Source of the DNA: Pseudobutyrivibrio sp.
Lineage (GTDB): Bacteria; Bacillota; Clostridia; Lachnospirales; Lachnospiraceae
Assembly (NCBI RefSeq): GCF_015057185.1
Contig: NZ_SVEV01000008.1
Span: forward strand, 1 to 64,000
Direction: 5' to 3'
Length of the DNA: 64,000 bases
The position numbers and the translations under genes are program-made. Positions 12,876-43,933 of the stretch are shown here, in pieces (positions within the stretch are counted from its first letter, which is position 1; every line of letters starts with the position of its first letter). The notes under the pieces were generated by a model that was given only the letters and a program-made list of their open reading frames with translations, was not told the origin of the DNA and made no database searches.

Positions 12876-12912
12876 TCGTTGAATAATTTATTTTATCAAA
12901 AAATTTAAGTGA

Positions 12913-13006
12913 GCTTTGTAACTATCAAGCTCTAAGTGTTGCTGAAAGGAACGTGTCAGTGACTGAAAGCAATATCTTAGGCTTGAGAGTGTAACAAAGC
13001 GGACTA
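12913..13006 (+). promoter_or_regulatory. putative structured leader RNA, copy A
   Basis: About 94 nt directly before the Shine-Dalgarno of the Gfo/Idh gene. P1 gctttgt (12913-12919) pairs with acaaagc (12994-13000). P2 caagctctaag (12926-12936) pairs with cttaggcttg (12976-12985), leaving one bulged U. P3 tgttgct (12937-12943) pairs with agcaata (12968-12974). A 24-nt apical region follows. After P1 comes GGACUA (13001-13006), then AGGAGG at 13008. The same architecture occurs at 15273-15362 (minus) and 41086-41216. It is probably a cis-regulatory RNA acting on translation; the ligand is unknown. Confidence 0.75.
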
Positions 13007-13018
13007 TAGGAGGAAAAA

Positions 13019-14305
13019 ATGAAAAAAGAAATTAGAATTGCCATCATTGGCTGCGGTATGATTTCACACCGCCACATGACAGTTATCCAGAATCTTAACA
13101 AGAGAGGCGAGAACCTTAGAGTTGTTGCAGCTGCTGAAATCGACAAGGAAAAGCTTTTAGCTTGGGGTAAGCAGTACGGAATCGATGAGAAGGATCTTTA
13201 TGTTGACTTCCGCGAGATGTTAAAGAGAGATGATATCGATGAGGTAGAGGTTTGCGTACATAACAACCTTCATACTTCAGTTGCTACAGCAGTTATGGCA
13301 GCAGGTTTCCCTTGCTACTCAGAGAAGCCAATGGCTTGCTCATATGCTGATGCAAAGATTCTTTACGATGCACAGAAGAAGTATGGTCAGAAGCTTGCTG
13401 TTCAGATCAGCTCAATCTACAACCCACAGACACGTATCGCAAAGAAGATGATTGAAGAAGGAAAGCTTGGTAAGGTTTACCATGCACGTTCAGTAGGTCA
13501 CAGACGTCAGGGCCGTCCTGGTTATGATATGCAGTTCTTCTCAAAGGACTTCATCAATCCAGAAATCGGTGTTCACGGACCATTATTTGATCTTGGTATT
13601 TATCACCTTGCTCAGATGCTCTATGTACTTGGTATGCCAGAGCTTGAGAGCGTTTATGGTGTTCAGTCTTGTGATTATTGGACACACCCAACAATCGATG
13701 CACAGACAAATCGTACAGCTCCAGTAGAGGATCTTGGTGTTGGTATCGCTCGTTTCAAGAACGGTCTTTCAATGGATATCTACGAGGATTGGGCTATTCA
13801 CATGGATGAAATCGGTACAAGCTTCATCGCTGGTAAGAACGGCGGTATCAAGTTTATCGATGTTGACTCAACAGGTGGTCCTATGGCAGTTCCAGAGGGC
13901 GGCGCTATCGTTGGTGGTGGTCACCTTCAGACTCCAAAGCTTGAGCACTATGGTGTAGACGAGGATGGAAACTTATTTGAGACAAAGCTTGATTGTGCTA
14001 TCGGTGATATCACAGGTCAGCAGGAGCTTGCTCTTCACCCAGAGATGGTTATGTACAATGACAACCAGCTTCACTGGTATTCATACCTTCGTGGCGATCT
14101 TACAGATGAGACACGTATTGACTCACCTTACATCGCTATGCAGACAGCATTCATTTCAGAAGGTATCGTTCTTTCTAACGAGCTTGGCCGTTCAGTAACA
14201 GCTGACGAGATCAAGAAGATGTCTAAGTCAATCGCTATCCGCGAGCAGAAGACAGACTTCGGCGTAATCAAGTACGATTTTGATGAGTACGTTCCAGAAG
14301 TATAA
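13019..14305 (+). CDS. Gfo/Idh/MocA-family oxidoreductase
   Basis: NAD(P)-dependent sugar or cyclitol dehydrogenase. Seen: N-terminal Rossmann motif IIGCGMISHRH, the EKPMACSYADA motif with the catalytic-region Lys, and a C-terminal GFO_IDH_MocA beta-sheet domain. Length is 428. It shares the strong C-ending codon bias of the epimerase at 12036, 143 bp upstream, so both are likely highly expressed and act on the same substrate. The start follows AGGAGG and the structured leader RNA, suggesting it is separately tuned at translation. Substrate cannot be set from sequence. Confidence 0.88.
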   Translation: MKKEIRIAIIGCGMISHRHMTVIQNLNKRGENLRVVAAAEIDKEKLLAWGKQYGIDEKDLYVDFREMLKRDDIDEVEVCVHNNLHTSVATAVMAAGFPCYSEKPMACSYADAKILYDAQKKYGQKLAVQISSIYNPQTRIAKKMIEEGKLGKVYHARSVGHRRQGRPGYDMQFFSKDFINPEIGVHGPLFDLGIYHLAQMLYVLGMPELESVYGVQSCDYWTHPTIDAQTNRTAPVEDLGVGIARFKNGLSMDIYEDWAIHMDEIGTSFIAGKNGGIKFIDVDSTGGPMAVPEGGAIVGGGHLQTPKLEHYGVDEDGNLFETKLDCAIGDITGQQELALHPEMVMYNDNQLHWYSYLRGDLTDETRIDSPYIAMQTAFISEGIVLSNELGRSVTADEIKKMSKSIAIREQKTDFGVIKYDFDEYVPEV

Positions 14306-14360: not shown

Positions 14361-14394
14361 AAATGCACCCCAAGCCAGTGGGGTGCATTTTTAT
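14361..14394. terminator. strong terminator between convergent genes
   Basis: A perfect 11-bp stem (aaatgcacccc / ggggtgcattt), loop of eight bases, then a T run. It ends the Gfo/Idh transcript and touches the stop codon of the convergent AraC gene at 14391. Confidence 0.92.
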
Positions 14395-15263
14395 TTGCGA
14401 AGTATTTCATCCCTATATTTTTTAGGACTCTTACCATATTCTTTTATGAAAGCCCGATAAAAAACTGAGTAGTCAGAAAAGCCGTAGGATTCGGAAACTA
14501 AAGAAATATCTTGGCCGCTAAGAATGGCGTCTCGACACATGTCGAGGCGCTTTTTTGTTATGTATTTATGCAAAGGTAGTCCATTGGTCTCTGTGAAAAT
14601 GTGAGAAATATGGAATTTGCTCACATGCATTTTCTCAGCTAATAAGTCCAGAGATAAATCCTCATCAATATGTGATTCAATGTATTGGATGATGCTCTGA
14701 TAGAGGGTATCTTCACTTAAATCGGTGACTTCTGGATTAAGTGATTCGTACACGAAACGATTTACAGATAATACAAAATCACTAACGTTTAGAAGAATTT
14801 TTGCATCTCGTCCAAATCTGTTTGAATGAATCTCGTCTATAAGTGTAAAAACCTTTCCCTGAATACTGTTGAATTCTATGTCTGTAAATTTGTGAATAAA
14901 ACCATTCTCTTTTTTTGATAAATCAGAAAGGTAATAGTAATCCTCAGACACATTGGTAAGAGTCTTTAAGAAGTCCTCAGTAATCCAGAATACGATTCTC
15001 TTATAGCTGGATTTGGTGTCTACTTGTCGTATGTGATGTGGTATTCCTGGTGGGATGACAATCATCGTACCTGGAGTGGGAGCAAGGGCTGTCTGATTCA
15101 GGTACATGATAATGTCTCCTTCAAGGAAGAAGTAAAACTCATAGTAATCATGTGAGTGCTGCTTTACATCAGGTACAGTTTTGTCGCTGTAGTAGTAGAT
15201 CTCAAAATCCCTGTAAAGCATATATTGTCTTGTACTAAATTCGGTTTTTAAATTTTTTTTCAT
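14391..15263 (-). CDS. AraC-family regulator with N-terminal cupin; candidate hexuronate regulator
   Basis: Classical AraC architecture of 290 residues: an N-terminal cupin effector domain (HSHDYYEFYFF... PPGIPHHIR) and C-terminal double HTH ending in YGFSDYSVFYRAF and KSPKKYRD. It differs from the three long AraC paralogues here. Its promoter holds a pair of direct half-sites (15392 and 15413, 21 bp apart) that recur upstream of the eda-uxuA operon at 27875 and 27896. It is therefore my best candidate for autoregulation and control of hexuronate catabolism (inference). The mRNA would start about 15377 and carry leader RNA copy C. Confidence 0.9.
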   Translation of the reverse strand: MKKNLKTEFSTRQYMLYRDFEIYYYSDKTVPDVKQHSHDYYEFYFFLEGDIIMYLNQTALAPTPGTMIVIPPGIPHHIRQVDTKSSYKRIVFWITEDFLKTLTNVSEDYYYLSDLSKKENGFIHKFTDIEFNSIQGKVFTLIDEIHSNRFGRDAKILLNVSDFVLSVNRFVYESLNPEVTDLSEDTLYQSIIQYIESHIDEDLSLDLLAEKMHVSKFHISHIFTETNGLPLHKYITKKRLDMCRDAILSGQDISLVSESYGFSDYSVFYRAFIKEYGKSPKKYRDEILRK

Positions 15264-15272
15264 ACTAACCTC

Positions 15273-15362
15273 TAATCCGATGGTTACAACAACAAGCCTT
15301 TGATTCTCTTTCTTCAGCTAAAATGCCTCATTCAGAGAACAAAGAGCTTGTAGTCTACCATC
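15273..15362 (-). promoter_or_regulatory. putative structured leader RNA, copy C
   Basis: Read on the minus strand upstream of the AraC gene. P1 gatggt (15362-15357) pairs with accatc (15284-15279). Joining agacta follows. P2 caagctctttg (15350-15340) pairs with caaaggcttg (15302-15293), again with one bulged U. P3 ttctct pairs with agagaa, and the apical region is 24 nt beginning GAAUGAGGCAU. GGAUUA follows P1, then GAGG before the ATG. Helix sequences differ from copies A and B but keep pairing. Confidence 0.75.
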
Positions 15363-15383
15363 TCGATTAAAAAACAGAATAAC

Positions 15384-32035: not shown

Positions 32036-32178
32036 TGCCTAGCATAGAAAAACATGGCAAGCGCGAGCAGGGAAGTGCCATGCCAAGCCTGGGAGGGTCC
32101 CACACCGGGCGGGTTGGGGCCCAGGCTTGAGTATGGAGGGTGCCCTGCGGGAGCATGAAAAAGTAGGATTGCTAGGCA
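32036..32178. repeat. GC-rich multi-stem element between uxaC and kdgK
   Basis: An outer 9-bp inverted repeat, tgcctagca (32036-32044) and tgctaggca (32170-32178), encloses hairpins catggca/tgccatg (32053-32082), aagcctggg/cccaggctt (32085-32128) and a small one near 32141-32155. Much of it is G+C-rich, far above the flanks. It may be a dispersed palindromic element or a cloverleaf-like RNA in the operon mRNA. It starts three bases after the uxaC stop and ends 14 bases before the kdgK ATG. Confidence 0.6.
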
Positions 32179-32192
32179 GAATGGAGAGAGAA

Positions 32193-41040: not shown

Positions 41041-41085
41041 GGTTGAAACATAACAGTTAATTTAAAATCTTTAATTATTAGAAGA

Positions 41086-41216
41086 GCCAGTAGGTAACAA
41101 GCCCTTAGAGAGTTAATTAAATCTAAGCTAGTAATAGACAAGCTCTTAGGTTACTGAATGAGGCATGTTAGCCGAATGAAGTAACACTAAGGCTTGTAAC
41201 CGTAACTGGCGGACTA
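41086..41216 (+). promoter_or_regulatory. putative structured leader RNA, copy B
   Basis: P1 gccagt (41086-41091) pairs with actggc (41205-41210). P2 caagctcttag (41139-41149) pairs with ctaaggcttg (41187-41196), with the same bulged U. P3 gttact pairs with agtaac around a 24-nt apical region beginning GAAUGAGGCAU. GGACUA (41211-41216) follows, then AAGGGA and the polA start. Unlike A and C it has an inserted hairpin cttaga/tctaag (41104-41127). A second P2-like strand, caagcccttag (41098-41108), could compete for the same 3' partner. Confidence 0.75.
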
Positions 41217-41230
41217 AAGGGAATAAACAT

Positions 41231-43933
41231 ATGAAATTATTGTTAATGGATGGACATAGCATAGCTAACAGAGCTTTTTATGGAGTGCCAGATCTTACGA
41301 ATAGCGCCGGCGAGCACACCGGCGCCATTTTTGGTTTTTTGAATATGATGTTTAAGTTCATTGAGGATGAGCAGCCAGACAATTTTGCGGTGGCATTTGA
41401 CGTTCATGCTCCTACATTTAGACATAAAATGTTCGACGCATACAAGGGCACACGTAAACCAATGCTTCCTGAGCTAAAGGAACAGATTCCTAGAATTCAG
41501 GAGCTTTTGCAGGCAATGGGTGTGCCAGTTATTAAAATGGAAGGTTGGGAGGCTGATGATATCCTAGGCACTCTTTCTCGCATAGGTGAAGAGAGAGGAA
41601 TGGATGTAACAATCGTTTCCGGAGATAGAGATTTACTACAGCTTGCCACAGAAAAAGTAAAGATTTCTATACCAAAAACTAAGAAGACTGGAACAGAGAT
41701 TGAGAATTATTATGCTGAGGATGTTAAGGCTTTATATGGTGTTACTCCAAAGCAATTTATTGATATTAAGGCTCTTATGGGAGATGCATCTGATAATATT
41801 CCTGGCGTAGAGGGAATCGGAGAAAAAACTGCATCTAATTTAATTCAGCAATATGGATCAATCGAGGAATGCCATGCTCATGTTGAGGAACTAAAACCAC
41901 CAAGAGCATCCAAAAATTTGGCAGCTCAGTGGGATATAGCAGTTCTTTCAAAGGAGCTAGCTACAATCAATGTAAATGCTCCAATAGAGCTAGAAGAAGG
42001 CTGCACAAAGCTTGGCAATCTTTTCACTGAGGAGGCATATCTTCTTTGCAAGAGATACGAGCTTAAAAAGCTCCTTCCTAGATTTGAATCAACTGAGACA
42101 GAAAAGGTCATCGACAAAACCTCAGAGACCTTTAAACGTATATACGAATTAAACGAGGTAGAAGCATTCTTCACAGGACTTCAGTCTGCCGGCAAGGATT
42201 TCGTTGGTGCTAGCATTATGGCTGACGAGGATAGAACCATAAAGGGTGCAGCACTTTCAGATGGAGATGCTACCATTTACGTTGACTGTGCAGGACTCAT
42301 TACACCAGAATACTTGGCAGACAAATTGATCTCTGTAAGTAAAGCTGGCGTTAGATTATGCTTCTGGGATTTGAAAAATGCAATGCATTTGCTCTTTGAA
42401 TTGCTTAATGAAAATGATAAAAAAGCTGTTTTAGAAAAGGGTGGCAAATCAGAGATTTTCCCTAATGCAGTAGACGTTGCAGTGGCATCATATTTGCTTA
42501 ATCCTATCAAAAAGGAATACACAGCTGATGACATTGCAAATGAGACTCTTGGAATCATCATTCCAGCCCAGGCAGATTTATTTGGAAAGAAAAAGCTAAA
42601 GGATGCACTTAATGATGACAGCTTACTTGATGCTGTTACCACATACGCTTGCTACAACGCATACGTGGCATATGCTTCCTTTGAAAAAATAATTGGTGAG
42701 ATAGAAGCTCAGGGAATGGTAGATATCTTTAATAATATCGAGATGCCATTGGTGTACACATTATTTGATATGGAGCTTCAGGGCGTTGCCATGGACAAGG
42801 AAGCTCTTACAGAGTTTGGCGGAAAGCTTTCTGTTAGAATCGCAGAGCTAGAGAAAAGCATTTATGAGCAGGCTGGTGAGGAGTTCAACATCAATTCTCC
42901 AAAGCAGCTTGGAGTTATCTTATTTGAAAAACTTGGAATTGAAGGCGGCAAGAAAACTAAAACAGGCTATTCTACAGCGGCAGATGTTTTAGAAGAATTA
43001 GCACCAGCAAATCCAATAATCACAGATATTTTAGAGTATAGACAGCTGGCTAAATTAAAGAGTACATACGCTGATGGATTAGCTACCTGCGTGGCTGAGG
43101 ATGGAAGAATCCATTCAACATTTATGCAGACAGTTACAGCCACAGGACGTATCAGCTCAACAGAGCCTAATTTACAGAACATTCCTATTAGAATGGAGCT
43201 TGGAAGAGAAATCCGTAAGGTATTCTATCCAAAGGATGGCTGCGTATTTTTAGATGCTGATTACTCTCAGATTGAGCTTAGAGTGTTGGCTCACATGTCA
43301 GGAGACGAAGGCCTTATCAATGCATTCAAGGCTGGCCAGGACATTCACCGTTCTACAGCTTCATTGGTCTTTAACACTCCATTTGATGAGGTTACCGACC
43401 TTCAGAGACGTAGTGCCAAGGCTGTAAACTTTGGTATTGTTTACGGTATCAGTGCCTTTGGTTTGGCAAAGGATATTGGAGTTGGCAGAAAAGAAGCTCA
43501 GGAGTATATCGACAATTACTTCATGGCTTACCCAAAGATGCATGAGTTCCTAGAAGGATTAAAGGAAAGCGCAAAGGAAACAGGCTTTGCAACAACCATG
43601 TACGGTCGTCGCCGTCCTGTCCCAGAGCTTGCTTCATCAAACTTCATGACTCGTCAGTTTGGTGAGAGAGTTGCCATGAATTCACCTATCCAGGGAACAG
43701 CCGCAGACATTATCAAAATAGCCATGGTAAAGGTTCATGATAGATTACTTGCTGAGGGGCTTAAATCAAAATTACTTCTTCAGGTTCATGATGAGCTTTT
43801 AGTTGAGACTTACATTGAGGAACAGTCACAGGTTGAGAAGCTTATTGCAGAGGAAATGGAGAATGCAGCCCAGCTTTCTGTTAAACTTGAGATAGATATG
43901 AATGCCGGAAAGAATTGGGCGGAGAGTCACTGA
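41231..43933 (+). CDS. polA: DNA polymerase I
   Basis: 900 residues. The 5'-3' exonuclease domain (about 1-290: DGHSIANRAFYG, SGDRDLLQL) is followed by a degenerate 3'-5' exonuclease-like domain in which I see no DxE motif, so proofreading is probably absent, as in several Gram-positive Pol I enzymes. The polymerase domain has motif A DADYSQIELR (Asp675), motif B RRSAKAVNFGIVYG and motif C QVHDELLVE (Asp854). It acts in Okazaki-fragment maturation and repair. The gene has a structured leader RNA and is followed after two bases by coaE. Confidence 0.96.
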   Translation: MKLLLMDGHSIANRAFYGVPDLTNSAGEHTGAIFGFLNMMFKFIEDEQPDNFAVAFDVHAPTFRHKMFDAYKGTRKPMLPELKEQIPRIQELLQAMGVPVIKMEGWEADDILGTLSRIGEERGMDVTIVSGDRDLLQLATEKVKISIPKTKKTGTEIENYYAEDVKALYGVTPKQFIDIKALMGDASDNIPGVEGIGEKTASNLIQQYGSIEECHAHVEELKPPRASKNLAAQWDIAVLSKELATINVNAPIELEEGCTKLGNLFTEEAYLLCKRYELKKLLPRFESTETEKVIDKTSETFKRIYELNEVEAFFTGLQSAGKDFVGASIMADEDRTIKGAALSDGDATIYVDCAGLITPEYLADKLISVSKAGVRLCFWDLKNAMHLLFELLNENDKKAVLEKGGKSEIFPNAVDVAVASYLLNPIKKEYTADDIANETLGIIIPAQADLFGKKKLKDALNDDSLLDAVTTYACYNAYVAYASFEKIIGEIEAQGMVDIFNNIEMPLVYTLFDMELQGVAMDKEALTEFGGKLSVRIAELEKSIYEQAGEEFNINSPKQLGVILFEKLGIEGGKKTKTGYSTAADVLEELAPANPIITDILEYRQLAKLKSTYADGLATCVAEDGRIHSTFMQTVTATGRISSTEPNLQNIPIRMELGREIRKVFYPKDGCVFLDADYSQIELRVLAHMSGDEGLINAFKAGQDIHRSTASLVFNTPFDEVTDLQRRSAKAVNFGIVYGISAFGLAKDIGVGRKEAQEYIDNYFMAYPKMHEFLEGLKESAKETGFATTMYGRRRPVPELASSNFMTRQFGERVAMNSPIQGTAADIIKIAMVKVHDRLLAEGLKSKLLLQVHDELLVETYIEEQSQVEKLIAEEMENAAQLSVKLEIDMNAGKNWAESH

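Follow-up and report, generated by a model that had tools for sequence, protein, structure and literature searches.

A genus-specific, structured intergenic repeat of Pseudobutyrivibrio with probable selection at the RNA level

Three gene leaders in a 64,000-nucleotide stretch of Pseudobutyrivibrio DNA (the whole of which is called the window here) belong to a family of elements that is specific to this genus and about 95 nt long. Most of the Pseudobutyrivibrio genomes searched hold tens of copies and the window's own genome about 109, and the RNA structure that they share has no match in Rfam 15. Each copy is one long interrupted hairpin with one defined strand and near-invariant unpaired bases, and between related genomes sites have been gained or lost and copies inverted or swapped. 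The family is most probably a dispersed structured repeat that is selected at the RNA level and resembles ERIC, NEMIS and BOX; a specific role at gene borders is put forward more tentatively, at somewhat less than even confidence. What marks it as a dispersed structured intergenic repeat is its copy number in spacers, its restriction to one taxon, the differences in sites between relatives and a stable hairpin. The element joins covariation, a sign of RNA function, with repeat-like turnover, two properties that are usually kept apart.

The initial annotation described three leaders in the window and suggested a new riboswitch or a protein-binding leader. Their sequences proved to be as described, at 12911-13011 (+), 15364-15273 (-) and 41082-41220 (+), and all three (copies A, B and C) adjoin a ribosome binding site. 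The elements, their parts and the genes that follow are:

12911..13011, + strand: copy A, whole element; precedes a Gfo/Idh/MocA-type dehydrogenase gene
12913..12919, + strand: copy A, 5' arm of P1, GCTTTGT; pairs with ACAAAGC at 12994-13000
12926..12985, + strand: copy A, core hairpin CAAGC(U)CUAAG...CUUAG-GCUUG; its 24-nt apical region is 12944-12967
12986..12993, + strand: copy A, 3' joining strand AGAGUGUA, which ends in GUA
13001-13006 and 13008-13013, + strand: copy A, GGACUA and the ribosome binding site AGGAGG, respectively; start codon at 13019
13019..14305, + strand: gene of a Gfo/Idh/MocA-type oxidoreductase after copy A (PF01408, 73.2 bits; NCBIfam matches below cut-off)
15273..15364, - strand: copy B, whole element; precedes an AraC-type regulator gene
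14391..15263, - strand: gene of an AraC-family regulator after copy B (PF12833, 60 bits; NCBIfam matches below cut-off)
41082..41220, + strand: copy C, whole element; precedes polA (DNA polymerase I)
41103..41143, + strand: copy C, an additional 41 nt, the last five being a second CAAGC
41231..43933, + strand: polA after copy C (NF004397, 1023 bits; cut-off 720)

P1, the CAAGC with its bulged U, the single-base bulge, the 24-nt apical region, the joining strand ending in YGUA and the GGAYUA directly 3' of P1 were all present as first annotated. The one fold claimed for the three copies does hold for A, B and C, in the case of C only with its 41 extra nucleotides looped out; CAAGC stands in that copy twice (41098-41102, then 41139-41143), and the extra stretch, which the initial annotation did not mention, may have arisen by duplication within the element or by fusion with another copy, to judge from its sequence. 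Folded singly, copies A, B and C reach -40.8, -35.4 and -45.0 kcal/mol, with z-scores of -6.57, -5.96 and -4.97 and no equally good fold among 200 shuffles of each. The three-way alignment has 29 predicted pairs, and the statement that the helices change while staying paired was borne out by a kept double change at 13 of the 29.

A BLAST search with copy A as query gave 44 matches in the window's own genome, from which the window and the spacers near copies were taken for closer study. A covariance model (R1) built from the three window copies gave 112 matches there at E <= 10, 109 of them at E <= 1.2e-4; in this search copy A matched at 12911-13010 (86.9 bits, E 5.8e-20), copy B at 15269-15365 (107 bits, E 1.4e-25) and copy C over 41124-41220 (93 bits). 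Among 61 genomes, with at most 68 candidates scored per genome, R1 matched the own genome and 27 of the 28 other Pseudobutyrivibrio members, and none of the 32 genomes of other genera (8 of the same family, 24 of the same order). Three incomplete assemblies of 2.3 Mb gave few matches or none: five in G003, one in G006 and none in G020. A second model (R2) was made from all own-genome matches and found two matching genomes among 299 of the family, both of the window's genus, and none among the 297 genomes of other genera, a search that scored 13 candidates per genome and could therefore miss weak relatives. An exact-pattern scan of named genomes matched at least 102 stretches, and the 80 of these that were listed all belong to Pseudobutyrivibrio or to Butyrivibrio fibrisolvens 16/4, which is taken to be the genus member G009; the same pattern was absent from a viral collection.

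The initial annotation could place the leaders in no named class, and Rfam 15 agrees: at gathering score it matched nothing in the 64,000 bases of the window or in six further loci. Permissive Rfam searches of two regions gave seven and five sub-threshold matches, none of the seven overlapping copy A or B, and those on copy C fell far below threshold (SAM-III, for instance, at 15.4 against 45 bits). A search of one open-licence full-text collection found no account of the element.

Selection on RNA structure, first suggested from three sequences, is upheld in the alignment of the 112 matches, which form 111 distinct rows, as one locus is present twice; two of the matches are weak, and with these and the double locus dropped the later counts refer to 109 copies. 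Standard pairs fill 96.6% of 3190 cells, and 27 of the 29 pairs show double changes. The covariation score is 0.644 against 0.173 +/- 0.007 in shuffles (none of 500 as high) and 0.05-0.08 in slid controls; these counts lean towards the model, to which the alignment was fitted, and related copies are not independent. The outer four pairs of P1 take at least four pair types each across the copies, while the two innermost are nearly constant. The bases immediately below P1 covary as well, TGA going with GGA in 25 copies and ATA or GTA with GAG in 13, with one exception; the remaining 70 of 109 have different bases on one or both sides.

Some unpaired bases hardly vary. In the A/GUA internal loop the A is present in all 109 copies and the opposite G, U and A in 108, 109 and 105, the bulged U is kept in 106 of 109, and one U of the hexaloop in 105 of 109. 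The A/GUA arrangement presumably recalls the bulged-G (loop E) motif. Strand identity is also evident, as G·U cells number 78 against 10 A·C (51 other mismatches; two weak pairs left out; p 3e-14), and 57 against 3 in genus members G011 and G019 together. This excess indicates that one strand is the structured, constrained one. Copies antisense to their neighbours likewise have more G·U than A·C on the element strand, 13 against 1, in a table where one contig-end copy is pooled with that class. Some family members depart from the common form: those at L070:4988-5279 and L116:232-388 are enlarged, with extra inner hairpins on the same base, and the one at L125:1625-1731 has a different apical loop with AGUAUAGCGAAAGCGA on the same base, with L116 and L113:5608-5714 being similar.

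The placement of the copies is uneven with respect to the genes around them, as far as mechanical ORF calls, which make the context classes approximate, can tell. Both neighbours run in the element's direction (++) at 63 of the 109 copies and in the opposite direction (--) at 15 (p 4e-8), 18 are convergent (+-) and 3 divergent (-+; p 0.0015), six and one lie at contig ends, and three fall within an ORF call. The element is therefore not confined to sense leaders; 33 of the 109 copies are convergent or antisense at gene 3' ends, and some convergent copies (L120, L125 and L109:2633 are examples) have a terminator-like U run after the stem that the three window copies do not have. For 65 copies the start of an ORF of 90 or more codons lies no further than 60 nt downstream, which, together with the count of about 109 own-genome copies, many of them directly before start codons, supplies the further homologues upstream of genes by which the initial annotation was to be checked. 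The distance from the 3' end to the next ORF call is at most 25 nt for 42 of the 63 ++ copies, and that from the preceding stop to the 5' end at most 30 nt for 21 of the 63; this leaves little room for a promoter, so that many copies are intercistronic.

Among the 65 downstream proteins, 20 were scanned, and these belong to replication, translation, and lipid, amino-acid and nucleotide metabolism. Genes above cut-off include polA, fabZ, smpB, cysS, dapA, ilvD, era, argB, pyrF, gpsA, purN, fabD, icd and prfC, and some scanned proteins, including those after copies A and B, gave only sub-cut-off NCBIfam matches. The genes are unrelated, and no association with one pathway appeared among the 20 of 65.

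Related genomes differ in which sites are occupied. The model search found an element upstream of polA in 7 of 29 genomes, on which ground a single conserved polA leader was rejected; in G004, G008, G009, G022 and G026 the site instead has overlapping stop and start codons, TAATG, and some other genomes keep short remnants. G011 and G019, which share 93.3% identity in the polA region and are collinear over much of the compared region, differ in that a spacer occupied in one may be empty in the other, keep a short scar or contain other repeats. When 71 copies of G011 were tested against one contig of G019 and the sequence around the G019 copies that lie elsewhere, 21 had a copy at the same site. 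The core is identical in nine of these 21 and in three is no closer than random (ranks 17, 25 and 28 of 35). One of the 21, 1415031/203406, is in opposite orientation relative to its flanks, as are two further sites, 646460/251169 and 1761289/202303; at 646460/251169 the far right flank lies 2.2 kb further on in G019, meaning that the region was rearranged too. Natural pairs of species with and without the element thus exist at many housekeeping genes, and its effect on expression is directly testable.

Two of these comparisons merit separate mention. Between G011:C1:646460-646555 and G019:C15:251169-251265 it is the interior that is inverted between the P1 arms. Opposite G011:C1:2185083-2185178, all that is left in G019 (L298, near 2971-2980) is a palindrome, its 3' arm reading as the reverse complement of the 5' arm; template switching during replication would be expected to give this.

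Where a copy has stayed in place it can be better conserved than its surroundings. In the 17 of the 21 G011-G019 pairs that look like the same copy, 39 of 1427 element bases differ; without 1415031/203406, whose inversion makes its flank rows meaningless, the element differs at 32 of 1343 bases (2.4%) against 5.1% to 11.0% in six flank bins, a figure conditional on the choice of pairs, as with the four dropped pairs (18/84, 20/83, 28/83 and 30/78 differences) it becomes 135 of 1755 (7.7%). Changes at paired positions were double and compensated 40 times, one-sided 11 times and broken 8 times in all 21 pairs, and 9, 5 and 4 times in the 17.

The same can be seen over longer distances. Between the own genome and the distant G011 or G019, 32 copy pairs (28 own copies) share a neighbouring gene; five have a similarity of 0.95-0.99, four of 0.81-0.86, and 23 of 0.77 or less, where random copies have a mean of 0.63 and a 95th percentile of 0.77. 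The five copies that are 95-99% identical between distant species have flanks that differ by 8-31%, and four precede genes for a HypA protein, isocitrate dehydrogenase, a class I tRNA synthetase (valS by our reading) and dihydrofolate reductase, the fifth lying beside a contig-end gene. The element at the synthetase site has 98% identity and one flank 69%; the values at the dihydrofolate reductase site are 95% and 78%. The near flank is almost identical as well at the hypA site, where local recombination between species offers an explanation other than selection. Copies at shared sites tend to be either nearly identical or unrelated, a pattern that would arise if copies recombined with one another or were inserted anew at favoured sites.

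Signs of a mover were sought in several ways. Around 215 copies no target-site duplication was detected, direct repeats of at least 6 nt occurring at 50 of the 215 against 45.8 +/- 5.8 in shuffled pairs. Of 29 genus genomes, 10 carry the Y1 transposase domain PF01797, and G011, G012 and G016, each with at least 67 matches, lack it; on this distribution a RAYT/Y1 transposase was rejected as the mover. The element was likewise not classed as a MITE, since P1 varies where terminal inverted repeats of conserved sequence would be expected and no target-site duplication was seen. Near-identical inner cores do occur at different sites with different outer stems; the idea that the target supplies P1, with hairpins already present there receiving the core, was nevertheless not adopted. 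Five short-hairpin matches in 218 own-genome spacers include no coreless family member, and the short forms in G011, in G019 and at polA look like deletions. The searches turned up neither a mover nor an excised form, and given this, the missing target-site duplication and the absence of Y1 from several copy-rich genomes, the statement that the element spreads is drawn from the patterns of turnover.

From its position, the element is likely to be transcribed and would act in cis on the mRNA as a gene-border module. Before a start codon it could serve as a roadblock, or as a processing or stability hairpin just upstream of the ribosome binding site, and at 3' ends it could form an extended terminator stem. 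Recognition would probably be by a nuclease or an RNA-binding protein through the A/GUA loop, the CAA/UUG pairs and the hexaloop, and the family would have spread through the genus in the manner of a non-autonomous repeat and through copies recombining with one another. This explanation does not account for everything: a role in the host mRNA leaves the G·U excess of the antisense copies (13 against 1) unexplained, and a simple picture of mutation and selection does not yield the tendency of shared copies to be nearly identical or unrelated.

The alternatives were weighed with odds that are not exclusive. Under one that we hold unlikely, though it deserves a hearing, the family is selfish mobile DNA whose hairpin is recognised as single-stranded DNA of one strand by a transposase or recombinase, and its preference for spacers reflects avoidance of genes and promoters. 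Recognition of a single-stranded DNA hairpin is the logic of IS200/IS605, REP or attC elements. Copy number, genus restriction, occupied and empty sites, swapped copies and like cores with different outer stems would all follow, and the one-strand G·U excess fits folding of single-stranded DNA too, including in the antisense copies that keep it. Yet the 215 copies lack a duplication signal, PF01797 is missing from G011, G012 and G016 and most of the genus (10 of 29 have it), a P1 that varies so widely provides no fixed terminal repeat, at several sites the copy is better conserved than its flanks, and the one exact pattern scanned was in none of the viral contigs. Marginally less favoured still, and in part a version of the preferred explanation, is a global cis-regulatory RNA with a genus-specific RNA-binding protein and a large regulon. 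Near-invariant unpaired bases in the A/GUA loop and hexaloop, the sense position close to the ribosome binding site and the strong conservation of some copies in place speak for a regulon, but a given gene does not keep its element from species to species (polA, 7 of 29), copies occur at 3' ends and in antisense, and no partner gene was identified. The protein-binding leader of the initial annotation survives to this extent: a protein may bind the element, but the element is not specific to leaders.

Two further readings are much less credible. Pairing could be restored at the DNA level without selection on RNA, hairpin-templated replication (template switching) making quasi-palindromes look covarying; the G019 counterpart of the 2185083 copy is one clear case, and copies in opposite orientation at one site point to hairpin rearrangement of DNA. 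Template switching erases bulges and asymmetric loops, however, and here the bulged U persists in 106 copies and the A/GUA loop in 105 to 109 of 109, while the asymmetry of G·U and A·C between strands also goes against it, so that this reading seems very improbable. The least probable of all is the metabolite riboswitch, attractive as it was from the conserved fold and loops, the leader position and the lack of an Rfam match. About 109 copies before unrelated genes, the 33 of 109 convergent or antisense at 3' ends, the polA count, and loss, inversion and swapping at sites disfavour it, and the proposal of a new riboswitch is not supported. Three covarying leaders in one window, then, can be a repeat family and not a riboswitch.

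The preferred reading, a dispersed repeat selected as RNA, has precedents, which the element would resemble in working as a transcribed spacer hairpin like ERIC, NEMIS and BOX, a likeness of description and not of descent. The inverted repeat of the Correia elements of Neisseria (NEMIS or CREE) is of conserved sequence, whereas here the outer stem varies widely, and target duplication was not found. The published accounts give more than 120 CREE copies in the gonococcus, an inverted-repeat structure, and locations mostly common to two strains with some that differ (PMC2649163, PMC2229807). In the enterobacteria, ERIC/IRU is described as a many-copy imperfect palindrome that is co-transcribed with its neighbours and whose orientation affects the upstream mRNA (PMC2229807), and the RU-1 palindrome as 127 bp long (PMC2759123). 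The present element is likewise palindromic and many-copy, as compared by description and not by sequence, but is found in one Firmicutes genus and mostly directly before the ribosome binding site. BOX, RUP and SPRITE of Streptococcus pneumoniae are reported to be dispersed structured Gram-positive repeats transcribed as 5' and 3' extensions of operons, SPRITE being terminator-like (PMC3049150); they differ in host and, as far as the account describes it, in fold, and here one type of element occupies leader and terminator-like settings alike. GTAG-tagged REPs are palindromes of 20-40 bp, which reportedly lie for the most part where neighbouring genes are unidirectional or converge, and RAYTs are taken to be their movers (PMC3733652). 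In the present family too the inner helix often starts with GTAG; the members of this family are, however, about 95 nt long and abound in several genomes without a Y1 transposase. The TAACTGA direct repeats of marine Beggiatoaceae, many copies of which reportedly lie within several nucleotides of the start codons of functionally unrelated genes (PMC4679880), are short heptamer arrays and not a long covarying hairpin. What sets the element apart from these known repeats is the strength of its covariation, its fixed strand, its sense position beside the ribosome binding site, and its use both as leader and at 3' ends.

A broader proposal, which we regard as speculative and rather doubtful, is that of an interchangeable RNA module across the genus: a core read by a genus-specific factor would be moved, swapped and inverted among about a hundred gene borders, before start codons and at 3' ends, and other structured cargos, of at least two more repeat families, would sit in the same TGAGC...GCGGACTA-ribosome binding site frame. 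If true, this would amount to a post-transcriptional network assembled by a non-autonomous repeat.

Other repeats were met in the same kind of spacer. One is GC-richer and structured-looking, and occurs in the window at 32040-32180 (+), in G011 near 155.4 and 156.5 kb (L294) and at L076:2857-3085; it has the motifs AAGCGCGAGC... and GCGGGAGCATG and is closed in the window copy by GCCTAGCA/TGCTAGGC. BLAST found 12 stretches of it in the own genome, itself included and two of them perhaps pieces of one copy, Rfam gave no match on L294, and the L076 copy has the same TGAGC...GCGGACTA ends. Another, CATCCCTACTTAGATGG...GCGTGGCGAATGG, is found at L076:830-1055 (-) and L075:4532-4775 (-), with nine BLAST stretches in the own genome, itself included; the two copies read have a GCGGA(C/T)TA end before the start codon.
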